Notes under the pieces: model-generated | What the model saw: only the letters and a program-made list of their open reading frames with translations | Told to the model about the DNA's origin: nothing | Database searches by the model: none | DNA from: a virus | Virus record (IMG/VR): IMGVR_UViG_3300035670_000877 | Coordinates: 1 to 31,908 of that record | Length of the DNA stretch: 31,908 bases | Direction: 5' to 3' (one strand) | Program-made: the position numbers and the translations under genes | Part shown: positions 6,718 through 31,908 of the stretch, piece by piece | Numbering within the stretch: the first letter of the stretch is position 1 | How the letters are laid out: the number at the start of each line of letters is the position of its first letter

Positions 6718-8013
6718 ATGGGGAATGCTCGTCGTAATAAGAAACACACCAATCGACCTGCCAGACCTGGAAGCGGAATACCTGTTGAGTCTGGGCGTGG
6801 CGCACTTGCCCGAGGTAGCAGACTTACCAACCCCGACGCGCTTCGCGTCCTCTGGTACAGCAACGCCCCCTTCACGAATACGGGCTACGGGCAGCAAACC
6901 GCGCAAATCATCCCGAGGCTCCTCCAAGACCAACACCAAGTAGCCATTCACGCCATGTATGGCTTGGAGGGTTCAACCTCCATGTGGAACGGGGTGAAAC
7001 TGTATCCGCGAGGGCTAGCCCCCTACAGCGACGACATCATGGTTGCGCACTGGATGGATTGGGCGAACGGCAACCGTGACCTGCCACCAATCTTGATGAC
7101 TCTGTTTGATGTGTGGGTGTTCAAATCTGCGACTTTTGATCAGGTCAAAAATATTGCGTCGTGGGTGCCGATTGATCACGCACCTACGCCACCGGATGTG
7201 TTGGCTTGGTTGGCTCGGAAGAATGTGATGCCGATTGCGATGAGCCAGTTTGGGAGTCGCATGTTGGAGAAGGCTGGCATTGAGCATCATTACGCACCGC
7301 ACGGTATTGAGTCCACGTTCAAACCGACGACGCATTACAGCAACGGCAGAGTTCAGGCAACAGGTCGTGAGCTCATGGGGATTGACGAAGACAAGTTCGT
7401 TGTGATGATGAACGCAGCAAACAAGGGTGTGAACCCGTCGCGGAAATCCTTTGCAGAAAACCTGTTAGCGTTCGGCATCTTCGCCCAGACCCATCCGGAT
7501 GCGGTGCTGTATTTGCACACTGAGGCGAACGGGTCGATGGGTGGGATTAGTTTGTTGCATCTGGCTGAGGCTTGTGGGATTCGACCGGAGCAGTTGAAGA
7601 TTGTTGACCAGTACGCCTACCGTGCAGGTTTTCCACAGGAGGCGTTGGCTGCCATGTACACGGCTTCCGATGTGCTGCTGTCCTGCTCAATGGGTGAGGG
7701 CTTCGGGTTGGCAGTCATTGAGGCGCAGGCTTGCGGCACTAGGGTCATCGTTTCGGATTTCACTGCCCAGCCGGAGTTGGTTGGGTCGGGGTGGACTGTG
7801 GAGGTTCAGCCGTTTTGGGATGCGGCTCAACGGTCATGGTTTTGTACCCCTCATGTTCCGTCCATCGTGGATGCCCTGAAACGTGCCTACGAGGCTCCTA
7901 GAGGCGTGGATGAGGTCGCTGTGGGGTTTGCTAGCCAATATCAGGCCGACACGGTTTATACGGCCTCCTGGAGGCCAATCATGGCAAGTCTGGCGGAATG
8001 GTGTCGCCAGTAG
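6718..8013 (+). CDS. Glycosyltransferase, GT-B fold (GT4-like)
   Basis: A 431-residue protein and first of four consecutive sugar-transferase genes. The N-terminal Rossmann half starts near residue 42 with VLWYSNAPFTNTGYG, typical of GT4 enzymes. The C-terminal half carries GEGFGLAVIE around residues 326-335, where Glu327 and Glu335 form the EX7E retaining-glycosyltransferase motif that binds the nucleotide sugar. No signal peptide or membrane segment is seen, so it should act in the cytoplasm. AAGGAGG at 6706-6712 sets ATG 6718. The first ~30 residues are basic and probably a tail outside the fold. Likely substrate is a phage virion protein or a host surface precursor; the sugar cannot be predicted. 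Confidence 0.87.
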   Translation: MGNARRNKKHTNRPARPGSGIPVESGRGALARGSRLTNPDALRVLWYSNAPFTNTGYGQQTAQIIPRLLQDQHQVAIHAMYGLEGSTSMWNGVKLYPRGLAPYSDDIMVAHWMDWANGNRDLPPILMTLFDVWVFKSATFDQVKNIASWVPIDHAPTPPDVLAWLARKNVMPIAMSQFGSRMLEKAGIEHHYAPHGIESTFKPTTHYSNGRVQATGRELMGIDEDKFVVMMNAANKGVNPSRKSFAENLLAFGIFAQTHPDAVLYLHTEANGSMGGISLLHLAEACGIRPEQLKIVDQYAYRAGFPQEALAAMYTASDVLLSCSMGEGFGLAVIEAQACGTRVIVSDFTAQPELVGSGWTVEVQPFWDAAQRSWFCTPHVPSIVDALKRAYEAPRGVDEVAVGFASQYQADTVYTASWRPIMASLAEWCRQ

Positions 8014-27099: not shown

Positions 27100-27325
27100 C
27101 GACCCGATCCGCGACATGATCGAATACCACAGCGAAGCGTTCTGCACCGCATATGTCATCGTTGCAACAACCGAAACAGTAGAAGGTGAACCCAAGTTCT
27201 ACATCACCACACTCAACGGACAAACAGCCTCAACCACGCTTGGTCTGCTTGAATCGGCATCGGCCGGAGAGAAATACAGAATTGCCAGGTTCTTTGCACA
27301 GAACATGGACGACGAAGAAAACTAA
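27089..27325 (+). CDS. Small protein, unknown function
   Basis: A 78-residue acidic protein. AAAGGA at 27076-27081 supports ATG 27089; ATG 27092 is an alternative. It reads SDDPIRDMIEYHSEAFCTAY then VIVATTETVEGEPKFYITTL and a helix GEKYRIARFFAQNMDDEEN. An alpha-beta arrangement with one central sheet is likely. No family is recognised. It stands directly ahead of the HTH and methyltransferase genes. Confidence 0.55.
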   Translation: MMSDDPIRDMIEYHSEAFCTAYVIVATTETVEGEPKFYITTLNGQTASTTLGLLESASAGEKYRIARFFAQNMDDEEN

Positions 27326-27348
27326 CGAATACAGCTCAGGAGGGGCAA

Positions 27349-27597
27349 ATGAGAGAACGACAAGAAGGCAAAGTGCGCAGGTATCCGACCGAGAACCTGA
27401 TGCGCCTTTTCCCAGCAGAGTACGACGACAAAACCGTTGCACGAATGCTCAACATCAACCGTGTCACGGTCGGCAAATGGCGACGCGAACCGCAAATGAT
27501 TTCCGAATGGTACGCAGACGAACTCGCCATCGGACTCGGAATGCACCCAATCGAAATCTGGTCAAACTGGCTAGACGAACAAGAAGGTGCAGCATGA
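27349..27597 (+). CDS. HTH DNA-binding protein
   Basis: An 82-residue protein with CAGGAGGGGCAA before ATG 27349. The helix-turn-helix is DKTVARMLNINRVTVGKWRR (27-46), with the recognition helix NRVTVGKWRRE. The rest, EWYADELAIGLGMHPIEIWS, is a helical tail that resembles short host-derived HTH proteins of actinophages. Coupling to the methyltransferase (ATGA) suggests it may regulate that gene or recruit it to DNA. It could also be the phage's Cro-like or early-to-late switch. Specific targets cannot be read from sequence. Confidence 0.72.
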   Translation: MRERQEGKVRRYPTENLMRLFPAEYDDKTVARMLNINRVTVGKWRREPQMISEWYADELAIGLGMHPIEIWSNWLDEQEGAA

Positions 27598-28907
27598 AAG
27601 TGCTGTCACTATTCAGCGGAGTCGGAGGTTTTGACCTCGGGCTAGAAGCCGCAGGAATGCAAACCATCTATCAATGCGAATGGGACAAACACGCCACCAA
27701 CATCCTCAACCGGCATTGGCCTGACGTACCGAAATGGGGTGACATCTCCACACTCACCGCCAGCGAAATCTTGCGACACGGGCAAGCACCCGATGTGGTT
27801 GCGTGGGGTAGCCCATGCCAAGACCTGTCAGTTGCAGGCAAACGTGCTGGGCTAGCTGGCGAACGCTCAGGACTATTCCATGAAGGCATCAGAATCATCA
27901 AAGAACTAAGGAAGGAAACTAACAATGCATTTCCAAGATTCTCTATTTGGGAGAACGTCGCAGGAGCCTTGTCGTCCAACGGAGGCGCTGACTTCGGGGC
28001 AGTCATCGACGAAATGGCTGAGGCAGGGGCGTTGGTCATTGAGTGGGCAATGTTGGATGCGCAACACTTCGGAGTCCCCCAGCGACGCAGAAGGGTGTTC
28101 GTCGTCGCTGTCTTTGATCCTGCAACCGCCGAGCGATGTCCCGAGCCGCTACTACCTGTCAGCCAAAGCGTGTCAGGGAATACTAAGAAGGGCAAGCAGA
28201 AGGGGCAAAACGCTTCCGGAGAGGTTGCGGCTTGCCTTAGAAGCGGTGGTGCAGGCGGAGTCCCCAGCGGCAGAGGTAACGGATCAGACAACCTGATCAC
28301 AGGATTTGGCAGCGCCAACTTTGGCGGTTGGGCAGAAACCGAAACAGCAGTCACCCTCTCAGCTCGTGACCACAAAGGCGGCAACACCATCGCAGTTGAA
28401 CCCATACTGCTTGATGGGACAAGGGTGGATGATGTTCGTGTTTATGAATCTCCAGTACAAACATTGAAGCAAAGAATGGGGACTGGTGGGAATAATGTGC
28501 CGATGCTTGCGATACCGATACATGACCAAGCGACACGATACGCGGGGAAGCGAGACAACAAACGAGACGGCAAAGGCAACGGCCTCGGAATAGGCAATGA
28601 GGGTGACCCGATGAATACGCTCACCTCAGCCGACCGTCACGCAATCGCATTCAGCCACACACAAGGGCTATCTGCACAACCGTCCGAAACTGCGTTCCCA
28701 ACCTTGCGCAAAGAAGGCGGAGGATCTGCCGTGATGGAACCAGCGATGACCGTGCGCAGACTCACCCCAATTGAATGCGAACGGCTGATGGGTTGGCCTG
28801 ACAACTGGACAGACGGCCAAGCCGACTCGCACCGATACAAACAATGCGGCAACGGAGTCGCATCACCAGTCGCCCAATGGATCGCCCAACACCTACTCAA
28901 CATCTAA
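27594..28907 (+). CDS. DNA cytosine-5 methyltransferase
   Basis: A 437-residue enzyme that would methylate cytosine in phage DNA, often to evade restriction. Motifs: I, VLSLFSGVGGFDLGLEAAGM (3-22); IV, WGSPCQDLSV with the catalytic Cys75; VI, WENVAG (119-124, Glu120); VIII, PQRRRRVFVVA (162-172); and the C-terminal LTPIECERLMGW and KQCGNGVASP (motifs IX-X). The target-recognition region (about 200-370) is long and low in complexity, with repeated VEP/LTSADRHAIA-like blocks. An upstream extension of this frame is out of frame with better-supported genes; ATG 27594 overlaps the HTH gene stop. No matching restriction enzyme is seen. Confidence 0.93.
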   Translation: MKVLSLFSGVGGFDLGLEAAGMQTIYQCEWDKHATNILNRHWPDVPKWGDISTLTASEILRHGQAPDVVAWGSPCQDLSVAGKRAGLAGERSGLFHEGIRIIKELRKETNNAFPRFSIWENVAGALSSNGGADFGAVIDEMAEAGALVIEWAMLDAQHFGVPQRRRRVFVVAVFDPATAERCPEPLLPVSQSVSGNTKKGKQKGQNASGEVAACLRSGGAGGVPSGRGNGSDNLITGFGSANFGGWAETETAVTLSARDHKGGNTIAVEPILLDGTRVDDVRVYESPVQTLKQRMGTGGNNVPMLAIPIHDQATRYAGKRDNKRDGKGNGLGIGNEGDPMNTLTSADRHAIAFSHTQGLSAQPSETAFPTLRKEGGGSAVMEPAMTVRRLTPIECERLMGWPDNWTDGQADSHRYKQCGNGVASPVAQWIAQHLLNI

Positions 28908-28925: not shown

Positions 28926-29426
28926 ATGAAATTTGCATACGCTGACCCCCCATACTTGGGCAACGGCAAACGCCGATACAAACCATTCCACGACCAAGCC
29001 GACCAATACGACCACAAACAAGCGCACCTAGACCTAGCCACTAAACTCGTTGACGAATACCCTGATGGATGGGCGCTGTCATGCAACCCCAAAGACCTTC
29101 AATGGTTACTCCCAGCCATGCCAGAAGATGTGCGTGTATGCGCGTGGACAAAAACATTCCACCAAATCCGCGTCAACGTCTCCGTGCAATACGCATGGGA
29201 ACCAGTCATCCTGCGAGGTGGACGCGACCAACGGCATCGACGGCCAATGACACGCGACTGGTGCAGCGGAACAATCGCAATGAGAAAAGGACTACCAGGG
29301 GCTAAACCCACCTACTTCTTCCAATGGATCATCGCCATGCTTGGCTACGAAGAAGGCGACACAATTGACGACCTATTCCCAGGCACATACGGACTACAGG
29401 AGACCCTGCACCATGACAATGCTTGA
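28926..29426 (+). CDS. DPPY-type DNA methyltransferase (phage beta class)
   Basis: A 166-residue protein with the catalytic FAYADPPYLG at its N-terminus (DPPY at 7-10) and a motif I-like end DDLFPGTYGL (148-157), the permuted order of beta-class amino-methyltransferases. Between them lie GWALSCNPKDLQWLLPAMPE (48-67) and YAWEPVILRGGRDQ, a pattern shared by short DNA methylases of actinophages. It would methylate adenine N6 or cytosine N4. The motif I glycines are partly changed (PGTYG rather than PGSG), so activity should be tested. GAGG is 11 bases before ATG 28926; an ATG at 28919 is out of frame. Confidence 0.8.
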   Translation: MKFAYADPPYLGNGKRRYKPFHDQADQYDHKQAHLDLATKLVDEYPDGWALSCNPKDLQWLLPAMPEDVRVCAWTKTFHQIRVNVSVQYAWEPVILRGGRDQRHRRPMTRDWCSGTIAMRKGLPGAKPTYFFQWIIAMLGYEEGDTIDDLFPGTYGLQETLHHDNA

Positions 29427-31482
29427 CCACGCCCTCGCCTACGCCCGGCTCGGCATCCGCATCATCCCAATCAAACCAGGCCAAAAATATCCCCCCATCC
29501 CACAATGGCAAAACAAAGCCACATGGGACGAACCCACCATCCGCGACTGGTGGACAAACCAATACGCCGACTACGGCATCGGCATCGCCACCGGGCACAC
29601 ACGCAACGGCAACATCTTCGTCATCGACGTAGACGACCGAGAACACCACTCAGGCTCAGAAACCCTAGAAGCCCTCCAAGAACGCTACGGACAACTCCCC
29701 GAAACCGTCGAAGCCCAAACCGGATCAGGCGGACGCCACCTCTACTACTACACACCAGTCACCATCAGAAACGACGCAGGCACACGCCTCGGCCCCGGCC
29801 TAGACATACGCGGCGAAGGCGGCCAAGTGCTAGCCGACCCCACCATCCACCCCAACGGCCGCCCCTACACATGGATCGACGGCCAATCCCCACACGAACG
29901 CAAACCAGCCCAAGCCCCACAATGGCTCACCGACCTCCTCACCAAACAACCCCAACCCATCAAACCCCCCACCACCGACACCTTCCTCAACGACCCCACC
30001 AGCCCCTCAGCCCGATACAACGCAGAAACCACATGGCACCAGCTACTCACAGCTGACGGCTGGACACTCGCCAAAACCGACCGACACGGCGAACAACACT
30101 GGACACGCCCAGGCAAAGACCCCCGCGAAGGCACCTCAGCCACCATCGGCCACAACGGCAACGACGCCCTCATCGTCTTCACCTCCAGCATCCCCTGGCT
30201 ACCAGAAGGCGGCTACAACCGCTTCGGCTACATGGCCGCCCGAGACCACGGTGGCGACTGGAAACAAGCAGCCCACCACTACCTCCAAACCAACCCCACC
30301 CCCACCACCACCCCAACCATCCCCAGCCCCGACGAAATGCTGTCCATGCTCATCGACTGGCGCACCTTTTGGACACAAGACCACCAAGCCGAAGACTGGA
30401 TAGCCAAACCACTCATCGCCCGCGCCCGGCAAACAGCCCTATTCGCAGGAGCCAAAACCGGCAAATCATGGGTCACCCTCAACATCGTCGCAGCCCTCGC
30501 CACAGGCAAACCCATCCTCGGCCAACCCGCCCAACCCCCCGTCCACGTCCTCTACCTGGACTACGAAATGGTCGAAGCCGACCTATACGAACGCTTGGAA
30601 CAATTCGGCTACACCGAAGACGACGACTACAGCCACCTCCACTACGCCCTCATCCCCAACCTCCCCCCACTCAACACCCAAGAAGGCGCAGCCGCCGTCA
30701 TGCGCCTCACCGAGCTCACCAAGGCTGAGGTGGTCGTCATCGACACCACAGGCCGCGCCATCGACGGCGAAGAAAACTCAGCCGACTCCTACCGAGAGTT
30801 TGCACGAACCACCGGACTCGCCCTCAAACGCGCAGGCATCGCCTGTGTACGCACAGACCACGCAGGCAAAGACGGCGGCAAAAAACTCGGACAACGCGGC
30901 TCATCGGCCAAGAACGATGACGTTGACATCGTGTACCGACTAGACAAAAACTCAGACGGCCTCACCCTGGTACGCACCCACAGTCGCATCGGCTGGTGTC
31001 CACCCCAGGTTGACCTGGTAGTCGACGACCTCGGAGACACCACCACAATCCGGCTCAAAGCCCAACCCACCGGATTCACCCCACTAGAAATCGAATGGGC
31101 CAGACGACTAGACGAACACGGCTTCCCACGCGAAGCCAGCCTCAACCAAATCGTCCAAGAAGCAAAAGAACGCGGCATCAAACTTGTGCGGCGCACCACC
31201 CTCGCCAAAGCGATCCAGGCGAGGCAGATGCCCCGACCTGACGAAGTTATCCACAGGCTAGACAGCTACGAACAGGTGGTTCCCAAAAATCGGGAACCAC
31301 TCGGGAACCACCCCCAAAATCGGGAACCACTTGGGAACCACCTCGGGAACCACTTTGTAGAACCCATACCGGACAAGGGAACTGGTGTGCGTTTATATAT
31401 AAACGCACCAGTTCCCGACCCACCCCGGAATCGGGAACCACTCGGGAACCACCCCGATCAGAACACCGACGACATATGGTGA
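29413..31482 (+). CDS. Primase-polymerase / helicase fusion
   Basis: A 689-residue replication protein. The N-terminal prim-pol domain (1-170) has FVIDVDD (Asp72 and Asp74), GSGGRHLYYY (His109) and GLDIRGEGG (Asp131), the AEP catalytic set. The C-terminal half is a RecA-like helicase: Walker A AGAKTGKS (345-352), VVVIDTTG (440-447, Asp444) as Walker B, and RTDHAGKDGG downstream, as in RepA and phage AAA_25 proteins. It should make primers and unwind DNA at the origin. ATG 29413 overlaps the methyltransferase by 14 bases. The last ~80 residues repeat NREPLGNH, because the coding sequence passes through the iterons of the candidate origin. Confidence 0.9.
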   Translation: MTMLDHALAYARLGIRIIPIKPGQKYPPIPQWQNKATWDEPTIRDWWTNQYADYGIGIATGHTRNGNIFVIDVDDREHHSGSETLEALQERYGQLPETVEAQTGSGGRHLYYYTPVTIRNDAGTRLGPGLDIRGEGGQVLADPTIHPNGRPYTWIDGQSPHERKPAQAPQWLTDLLTKQPQPIKPPTTDTFLNDPTSPSARYNAETTWHQLLTADGWTLAKTDRHGEQHWTRPGKDPREGTSATIGHNGNDALIVFTSSIPWLPEGGYNRFGYMAARDHGGDWKQAAHHYLQTNPTPTTTPTIPSPDEMLSMLIDWRTFWTQDHQAEDWIAKPLIARARQTALFAGAKTGKSWVTLNIVAALATGKPILGQPAQPPVHVLYLDYEMVEADLYERLEQFGYTEDDDYSHLHYALIPNLPPLNTQEGAAAVMRLTELTKAEVVVIDTTGRAIDGEENSADSYREFARTTGLALKRAGIACVRTDHAGKDGGKKLGQRGSSAKNDDVDIVYRLDKNSDGLTLVRTHSRIGWCPPQVDLVVDDLGDTTTIRLKAQPTGFTPLEIEWARRLDEHGFPREASLNQIVQEAKERGIKLVRRTTLAKAIQARQMPRPDEVIHRLDSYEQVVPKNREPLGNHPQNREPLGNHLGNHFVEPIPDKGTGVRLYINAPVPDPPRNREPLGNHPDQNTDDIW
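31247..31255 (+). promoter_or_regulatory. DnaA box
   Basis: TTATCCACA, identical to the consensus DnaA box, in the coding sequence of the primase-helicase and 21 bases before the first iteron. Confidence 0.7.
31276..31452. repeat. Iteron array (GGGAACCAC)
   Basis: Direct copies start at 31292, 31303, 31322, 31333, 31345, 31433 and 31444; an inverted copy, GTGGTTCCC, covers 31276-31284. Adjacent copies are 11 or 12 bases apart, about one helix turn, so bound proteins would sit on one DNA face. Most direct copies are preceded by TC or TT. They encode NREPLGNH-type peptide repeats. Confidence 0.85.
31377..31416. repeat. AT-rich palindrome of the origin region
   Basis: The core CGTTTATATATAAACG (31390-31405) is a perfect 16-bp palindrome. 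It is flanked by GGGAACTGGTG (31377-31387) and CACCAGTTCCC (31406-31416), perfect complements, with an extra TG (31388-31389) on the left only. The arms resemble the iteron. An AT core would melt or extrude easily. Confidence 0.8.
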
Positions 31483-31501
31483 TAAGAACAAAAGTACAGA
31501 G

Positions 31502-31521
31502 TTATCCACAGGTTATCCACA
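31502..31521 (+). promoter_or_regulatory. Tandem DnaA boxes
   Basis: Two TTATCCACA copies at 31502-31510 and 31513-31521, 11 bases apart, just after the primase-helicase stop. Perfect tandem boxes with helical spacing favour cooperative DnaA binding. Confidence 0.75.
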
Positions 31522-31541
31522 GCCAACCAACCGGAGCCATC

Positions 31542-31850
31542 ATGCGAATCCAACGCCCCTGTATCGACTGCAACAAACTCACAAACGGAACCACCCGATG
31601 CCCAACATGTCACCGACACCATCAGGCAATAAGCCGCGCCCACTACCGAGGCAACTACCAAGCCCGAGCCAAACACATTCGACAAAACGCCACAACTTGC
31701 CACCTATGCGGCAAGGGCTACGACCCCAACGACCCCTGGACTGCAGACCACATCAACCCAGGCGACAGCAGCTCAACGGCAGCGCTGCTGCCAGCTCATC
31801 GATCTTGCAATTCAAGTCGCCAGGACAAGCCGATCCCAGGTGCGATGTGA
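31542..31850 (+). CDS. HNH endonuclease
   Basis: A 102-residue protein with GGAG before ATG 31542. The N-terminal part has a CIDC/CPTC pair (Cys7, 10, 20, 23) that could hold zinc. The HNH part follows: TTCHLCGKGY (51-60, Cys53/Cys56), TADHINPGD (68-76, with the DH pair Asp69/His70) and LPAHRSCNSSR (83-93, ending with the Asn/His-type position). In many siphoviruses an HNH enzyme beside the terminase genes is needed for genome packaging. It would be directly upstream of the small terminase at the window start if the molecule closes. An in-frame ATG at 31476 lies in the origin region. Confidence 0.85.
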   Translation: MRIQRPCIDCNKLTNGTTRCPTCHRHHQAISRAHYRGNYQARAKHIRQNATTCHLCGKGYDPNDPWTADHINPGDSSSTAALLPAHRSCNSSRQDKPIPGAM

Positions 31851-31873: not shown

Positions 31874-31908
31874 GGGTTGCAACTGCGACGCGCACGACCG
31901 GCGAAGAC
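31874..31908. other. End of window, possible packaging-region DNA
   Basis: No gene is seen from here to the end, nor in positions 1-48. The stretch holds a GTTGCAAC palindrome (31876-31883) and GCACGA at 31892, a hexamer also found at 1-6. A cos or pac site is expected between the HNH and small terminase genes but cannot be identified. Confidence 0.3.

Follow-up and report, generated by a model that had tools for sequence, protein, structure and literature searches.

The window, that is, the whole 31,908-nucleotide stretch of DNA from a lake-type phage analysed here, carries near its right end a gene for a Prim-Pol/helicase. In the 3' part of this gene and shortly beyond it (31247-31521), eight iterons (GGGAACCAC), three exact DnaA boxes (TTATCCACA) and a palindrome were found, which is far above chance (Table 1). 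The first-pass annotation had reported the same three boxes, eight iterons and palindrome within 275 bases; all of them are present, and exact matches to the two motifs could be found nowhere else in the window. However, several details had to be revised. The array had been described as adjoining the primase-helicase gene and is instead located inside its ORF. The division into six iterons before the palindrome and two beyond it is correct, but the boxes flank the array, with box 1 on its left and boxes 2 and 3 on its right. The 16-bp palindrome with complementary arms exists, but is only the centre of a 40-nt hairpin. Finally, the start-to-start steps between iterons are 16 (the first copy being inverted), 11, 19, 11, 12, 88 and 11; thus, the suggested spacing of about one turn holds within pairs of the eight copies (11-12 bp) and not across the array, where steps of 16, 19 and 88 also occur.

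Table 1. Features of the Prim-Pol/helicase gene, the repeat array and their neighbourhood in the window
Feature	Position	Strand	Basis or remark
Prim-Pol/helicase gene, 689 aa from ATG 29413; upstream TTG 29341 possible	29413..31482	+	ORF and Pfam; putative origin in 3' end
Prim-Pol domain	29431..29925	+	Pfam PF09250 E=6e-44; pRN1 ORF904 profile match E=0.0013
AAA_25 helicase domain, RSF1010 RepA fold	30385..30876	+	Pfam PF13481 E=7e-22; RepA profile E=1.4e-4; VIA Z=20.9
Three-helix HTH-like domain, predicted iteron reader	31081..31224	+	Structure models; covariation with iterons
Arg codon R593, directly ahead of HTH helix 3	31189-31191	+	Model and covariation
Disordered tail, residues 608-689, encoded by the putative origin, C-terminus DDIW	31234..31479	+	pLDDT ~30
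DnaA box 1 TTATCCACA	31247..31255	+	Exact match
Iteron 1, inverted	31276..31284	-	Exact match
Iteron 2	31292..31300	+	Exact match
Iteron 3	31303..31311	+	Exact match
Iteron 4	31322..31330	+	Exact match
Iteron 5	31333..31341	+	Exact match
Iteron 6	31345..31353	+	Exact match
Spacer TAGAACCCATACCGGACAA, last left iteron to hairpin	31358..31376	+	Fixed position, partly conserved sequence, both clades
Hairpin; outer arms GGGAAC..GTTCCC = inverted iteron cores, inner stem = drifting palindrome	31377..31416	.	Fold and comparison
Iteron 7	31433..31441	+	Exact match
Iteron 8	31444..31452	+	Exact match
AT-rich stretch, 71% AT; candidate unwinding element, only in this phage	31472..31505	.	Composition
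DnaA box 2	31502..31510	+	Exact match
DnaA box 3, 11 bp from box 2	31513..31521	+	Exact match
HNH endonuclease gene, start ATG 31542; neighbour, outside the putative origin	31542..31850	+	Pfam

Under a Poisson model, 0.003 iterons and 0.002 DnaA boxes would be expected per 275 bp, which corresponds to P values of ~1e-25 for the observed iterons and ~1e-9 for the boxes. When the tail peptide was recoded synonymously (n=5000), the sequences contained on average 0.2 and at most 3 iterons, compared with the 8 observed, and none of 500 such recodings matched the observed stem length.

The primase, the helicase and the likely iteron reader are encoded by a single ORF in the window. Both profile and structure placed the helicase part closest to RSF1010 RepA (219 residues aligned, rmsd 4.1), with other RecA-fold helicases scoring within ~1 Z unit of RepA in VIA, and on fold and profile it falls into the RepA family. 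After the helicase domain, the model contains three helices (residues 557-604) and then the disordered tail, which is the segment encoded by the array and hairpin. The HTH region was modelled with modest confidence (pLDDT 73), and a Foldseek search of its fold against the PDB gave no significant match; thus, we do not claim a winged helix. No HUH nicking protein was observed among the part of all ORFs that was scanned with Pfam.

Protein searches of viral contigs yielded 78 typable array-bearing sequences (the window included), and the layout of iterons, fixed spacer and hairpin is shared by ~78 related contigs, which are not independent of one another. A search of related phages for conserved repeats had been suggested by the first-pass annotation, and in these contigs the iterons and hairpin are indeed retained together with the protein. 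In an invariable order, the iterons are followed by a spacer containing a conserved block (GAACCC or GAAACC) and (A)CAAGGG and, at a fixed distance, by the hairpin. Within clade 1 (66-75% identical), the ORF contains both array and hairpin, whereas in clade 2 (~58% identical) the protein is ~70 residues shorter and the element is located between the stop codon and the HNH gene. As the ORF of one clade includes the element and that of the other stops short of it, selection acts on the element as DNA, and its coding in clade 1 is incidental. A coding repeat could be ruled out, as the clade-1 iterons are spread over the three reading frames (99/46/44), the element of clade 2 does not code for protein and the array disappears on synonymous recoding. 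The iterons are ~197 times denser in the array than elsewhere in the loci. Repeats of other sequence, together with hairpins, occupy the equivalent position in Mycobacterium, Thermoleophilia and other bacterial genome contigs and in Streptomyces phage mu1/6; a DNA search of named phages gave no match.

Some further observations were made on individual contigs and on the protein ends. In L013 (4891-5110), the loss of two iterons (23 bp) has caused a frameshift that truncates the tail, and the downstream hairpin and iterons are intact. Several contigs, some of them near full length, stop inside or just past the array (L011, L016, L018, L021, L023, L032, L035, L041 and L044), and such ends probably represent assembly breaks at a variable repeat. 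The C-terminal residue of the clade-1 Prim-Pol/helicases is aromatic in 43/43 (38 W, 4 Y and 1 F) and is preceded by acidic residues (31468-31479 in the window). The protein of L148, a bacterial genome contig, ends in DDDNLDGFPF, resembling the C-terminal tip of SSB, and clade 2 proteins mostly have a PLx end without an acidic-aromatic tip.

The hairpin of the window, GGGAACTGGTG(TG)CGTTTATATATAAACGCACCAGTTCCC, has a DNA-fold z of -6.5, and its arms, GGGAAC and GTTCCC, are inverted copies of the iteron core. Among its relatives, changes in the stem are fully compensated: all seven pairs of the inner stem vary on both sides, all 112 cells are paired (16 distinct inner stems), and the covariation score was reached by none of 500 shuffles. 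In 92% of phages, a 6-mer of the left arm is present at least twice in the phage's own array, versus 5% for control stretches of the same ORF. A stricter rule, by which the array repeat should be found in both arms, had to be abandoned: right arms often differ by one base, so that just 72% of phages obeyed it; the left-arm rule holds. A loop of the C-GNA-G or C-GNNA-G type, a class that is unusually stable in DNA, was found in 12 of 18 distinct hairpins, unlike the TATA loop of the window. The AT-rich palindrome proposed earlier is not a conserved melting element, since the stems of relatives are GC-rich at the equivalent position; we therefore rejected it in this role, and it is the hairpin itself that is conserved.

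The array repeat and the C-terminal HTH domain change together. Between L055 and L045, identity is 94% for Prim-Pol, 95% for helicase, 90% for HNH, 93% for the small terminase (TerS) and 95% for TerL, but only 32% for the HTH domain. The array repeat of L055 is AGGACA, replacing GGGTACC/GGGAACC, and its hairpin has the arms GGGGACACC and GGTGTCCC, with the core between them being that of L014/L019; a single block exchange could not easily have altered both arms and spared the core. On the other hand, HTH and repeats are near-identical in L026 and L034, which have TerS of two types (28% identical). In clade 1, an Arg ahead of the recognition helix goes with G as the first iteron base in 157/181, versus 11/119 for His, a correlation based on some three changes along the helicase tree. 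The users of GGGACA (clade 2, Mycobacterium contigs and L055) have Asn, and not Lys/Arg, at the next position. The L217 and L211 groups were left out of the counts owing to uncertain register. On this basis, the C-terminal HTH domain would be the iteron reader. We also carried out a reverse search with the DNA pattern GGGAACCACNNGGGAACCAC alone, without the protein, which gave 18 viral contigs, 11 of them absent from the first protein search. Of these 11, the eight with at least three exact repeats all have a gene for an AAA_25-type helicase next to the array (L351, by a 71% protein match; L345, L349, L352, L353, L354, L356 and L361, by Pfam), and the three with just two repeats gave no AAA_25-type helicase match. 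In L345 (1420-3419), the neighbour of the array and hairpin is an AAA_25 helicase whose primase domains are Toprim and zinc-ribbon, with no Prim-Pol, and in L349 the array-side ORF encodes a helicase without primase. Thus, it is the helicase polypeptide that the array accompanies.

The DnaA boxes and AT-rich region are present here but not conserved in clade-1 relatives, in which no exact TTATCCACA could be found near the array; a distant relative (L361) has one box 31 bp left of its array. In the window, the box pair adjoins the AT-rich stretch, which is in the top 0.15% of the window. The first-pass annotation had envisaged a plasmid-like iteron origin, tied to the phage primase-helicase and shared with host DnaA. 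Our results support an origin of this plasmid-like kind and its tie to the protein, as relatives keep repeats and hairpin with it and the repeat tracks its C-terminal domain. A local DnaA contribution is plausible in this phage, given the three boxes and the AT-rich spot, but we rejected DnaA sharing as a general trait because clade-1 relatives are without boxes. The 22-mer GTTATCCACAGGTTATCCACAG at 31501-31522, which comprises two DnaA boxes at an 11-bp distance, was also observed in at least 120 stretches of viral contigs, and 92 of these 120 contain at least three boxes within 300 bp, which far exceeds chance.

With regard to genome position, the GC skew is mostly positive in the first 22 kb and mostly negative beyond, despite the common direction of the main ORFs. 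In 9/9 genomes, the minimum of the cumulative GC skew was found 0.3-0.6 kb to the right of the hairpin, at the HNH/terminase junction (an apparent cohesive-end site) and not at the hairpin itself. Because contig ends and run-through contigs suggest cohesive ends at this minimum, the skew is consistent with an origin in this general region and does not point to the hairpin in particular. Many relatives' contigs terminate with ...GAC or ...TAC ~60 nt past the HNH stop, and run-through contigs at the junction of window positions 31908 and 1 read TGAC-CCATGCCGT-GC..., the window beginning with GCAC. Cohesive ends are likely at this junction, with ~9 nt missing from the contig ends. The two TerS types (~28% identical) alternate among otherwise close relatives (L014, L019, L034, L039, L040 and L081 versus L009, L026, L045, L055 and L057). 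The window also encodes a glycosyltransferase (6718-8013) directly 3' of the major capsid gene and, in the early region, a C5 cytosine methyltransferase-type protein of 573 aa (27186-28907).

On the basis of these results, 31247-31521 is very probably the replication origin of the phage, read by its own Prim-Pol/helicase. The distance of the array from the genome end (~0.5 kb), the cos site suggested by contig ends 492 bp right of the hairpin and the conserved gene order primase-helicase/HNH/TerS/TerL could also be expected of cosB-like packaging sites recognised by the terminase. However, the repeat does not follow the small terminase: it differs in L055, whose TerS is 93% identical to that of L045, and is constant together with the HTH domain across the TerS switch between L026 and L034. 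By this double dissociation we rejected a packaging site, and we regard it as very unlikely; moreover, the genome end has a separate GC-rich inverted repeat of its own, and what the contigs found by repeat alone have in common is the helicase. It also seems most unlikely that host DnaA is the main initiator of an oriC-like origin with the phage protein following: this phage has three exact boxes and the AT-rich stretch, and tandem boxes at 11-bp pitch are common among viral contigs, but the boxless clade-1 relatives retain iterons, hairpin and protein.

The array adjoins the gene of its likely binder, and plasmid iterons often serve also as control sites. Repeats of this kind might be an operator or a partition/incompatibility site by which the HTH domain or another phage protein controls expression or copy number, not initiation. 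We consider this improbable, since the array occupies the 3' end of the gene, where no promoter-like match could be detected, and not a promoter region, since its partner is a primase-helicase, and since the conserved hairpin with its compensatory changes suits initiation better. The hairpin, which sits directly ahead of the HNH gene, would fold in RNA too and might act in the transcript on processing, termination or translation of the next gene. Nevertheless, an RNA element or terminator was rejected, and its probability appears slight indeed: no T-run, terminator match or Rfam match was found at the site, loops such as GTA and GATA differ from RNA GNRA loops, and such an element would leave unexplained both the identity of arm and array repeat and the co-change with the HTH domain.

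If the element is indeed an origin read by the Prim-Pol/helicase, initiation might proceed as follows. Several molecules, through their C-terminal HTH domains, would bind both the iterons and the inverted pair at the palindrome base. The RSF1010-RepA-type helicase domains would then assemble at the origin and open the DNA, and the opened palindrome could fold as a single-strand hairpin, at or near which the Prim-Pol domain of the same polypeptide would place a primer in cis. Host replication proteins, perhaps recruited by the acidic-aromatic tip of the tail, would extend the primer, and in this phage host DnaA probably assists via the three boxes and the AT-rich stretch. The scheme is modelled on RSF1010 (RepC on iterons, RepA unwinding and RepB' priming at ssi hairpins), P4 alpha and pRN1 (PMC4234260, PMC4434180). 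More tentatively, and with somewhat less than even confidence, we suggest that the element represents a class of origins that is widespread among actinobacterial phages and prophages and has apparently not been described. In this class, a single polypeptide would prime, unwind and read an origin made of iterons and a single-strand hairpin of inverted iterons, often in the 3' end of the gene; the gene would read through the origin to give the protein its acidic-aromatic tip, and recognition-helix residues would predict the iteron. No description of such an origin in these phages was found in the open-access literature. Should the reading as an origin be true, it would provide a sequence signature by which replication origins could be located in uncultured phages of a large group and, in L055, L217-L221, clade 2 and Mycobacterium contigs, a natural series of origin/reader swaps for reading the binding code. 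It would also link the RSF1010, P4 and pRN1 initiation modes in one protein and exemplify an origin that runs in frame through a disordered protein tail.

Comparison with known systems revealed both similarities and differences. The closest cultured relative is gene 21 (DNA helicase) of Streptomyces phage mu1/6, with 40% over the helicase. At its 3' end, gene 21 contains CCTGCCC repeats together with a hairpin whose arms match, as here, but the repeat differs and only the helicase part matches; in the open-access literature searched, this 3' end is not described as an origin. As in iteron-type theta origins, several short direct repeats lie near a replication-protein gene in the window. Iterons inside the initiator gene are also known from the ori of phage lambda (gene O), but lambda O is neither primase nor helicase, and its ori is without a hairpin of inverted iterons. 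The RSF1010 origin is located outside the helicase gene, unlike that of the window.

RSF1010 (IncQ) oriV, with RepA/RepB'/RepC, resembles the present element in its iterons and hairpin, the fold of its hexameric helicase and a dedicated primase, and is a precedent for iterons plus ssi hairpins (PMC4234260). However, it uses three polypeptides where we found one ORF with no separate RepC or RepB', has separate ssiA and ssiB instead of one hairpin of inverted iterons, and has a primase of another Prim-Pol family. The pRN1 ORF904, like the window protein, combines Prim-Pol, helicase and a C-terminal DNA-binding domain (the latter predicted here) in one protein, and the pRN1 stem-loop origin, conserved in structure but not in sequence, lies 3' of the Prim-Pol gene, near its 3' end (PMC4234260). 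It differs in its SF3 helicase and absence of iterons, as against a RecA-fold AAA_25 helicase and eight iterons here, and its origin follows the gene, whereas that of the window is inside. In satellite phage P4, with its ori and crr, one protein, alpha, primes, unwinds and binds iterons via a C-terminal domain, as may be the case here for iteron binding, but its primase is of the Toprim type, whereas the window protein has Prim-Pol PF09250; the distant array-bearing L345 has Toprim_2. Both P4 ori and crr are outside the alpha gene (partly PMC4234260). Thus, on our comparison, the origin in the window belongs to none of the RSF1010, pRN1 and P4 types, because each fails a defining feature, and appears to work like all three.
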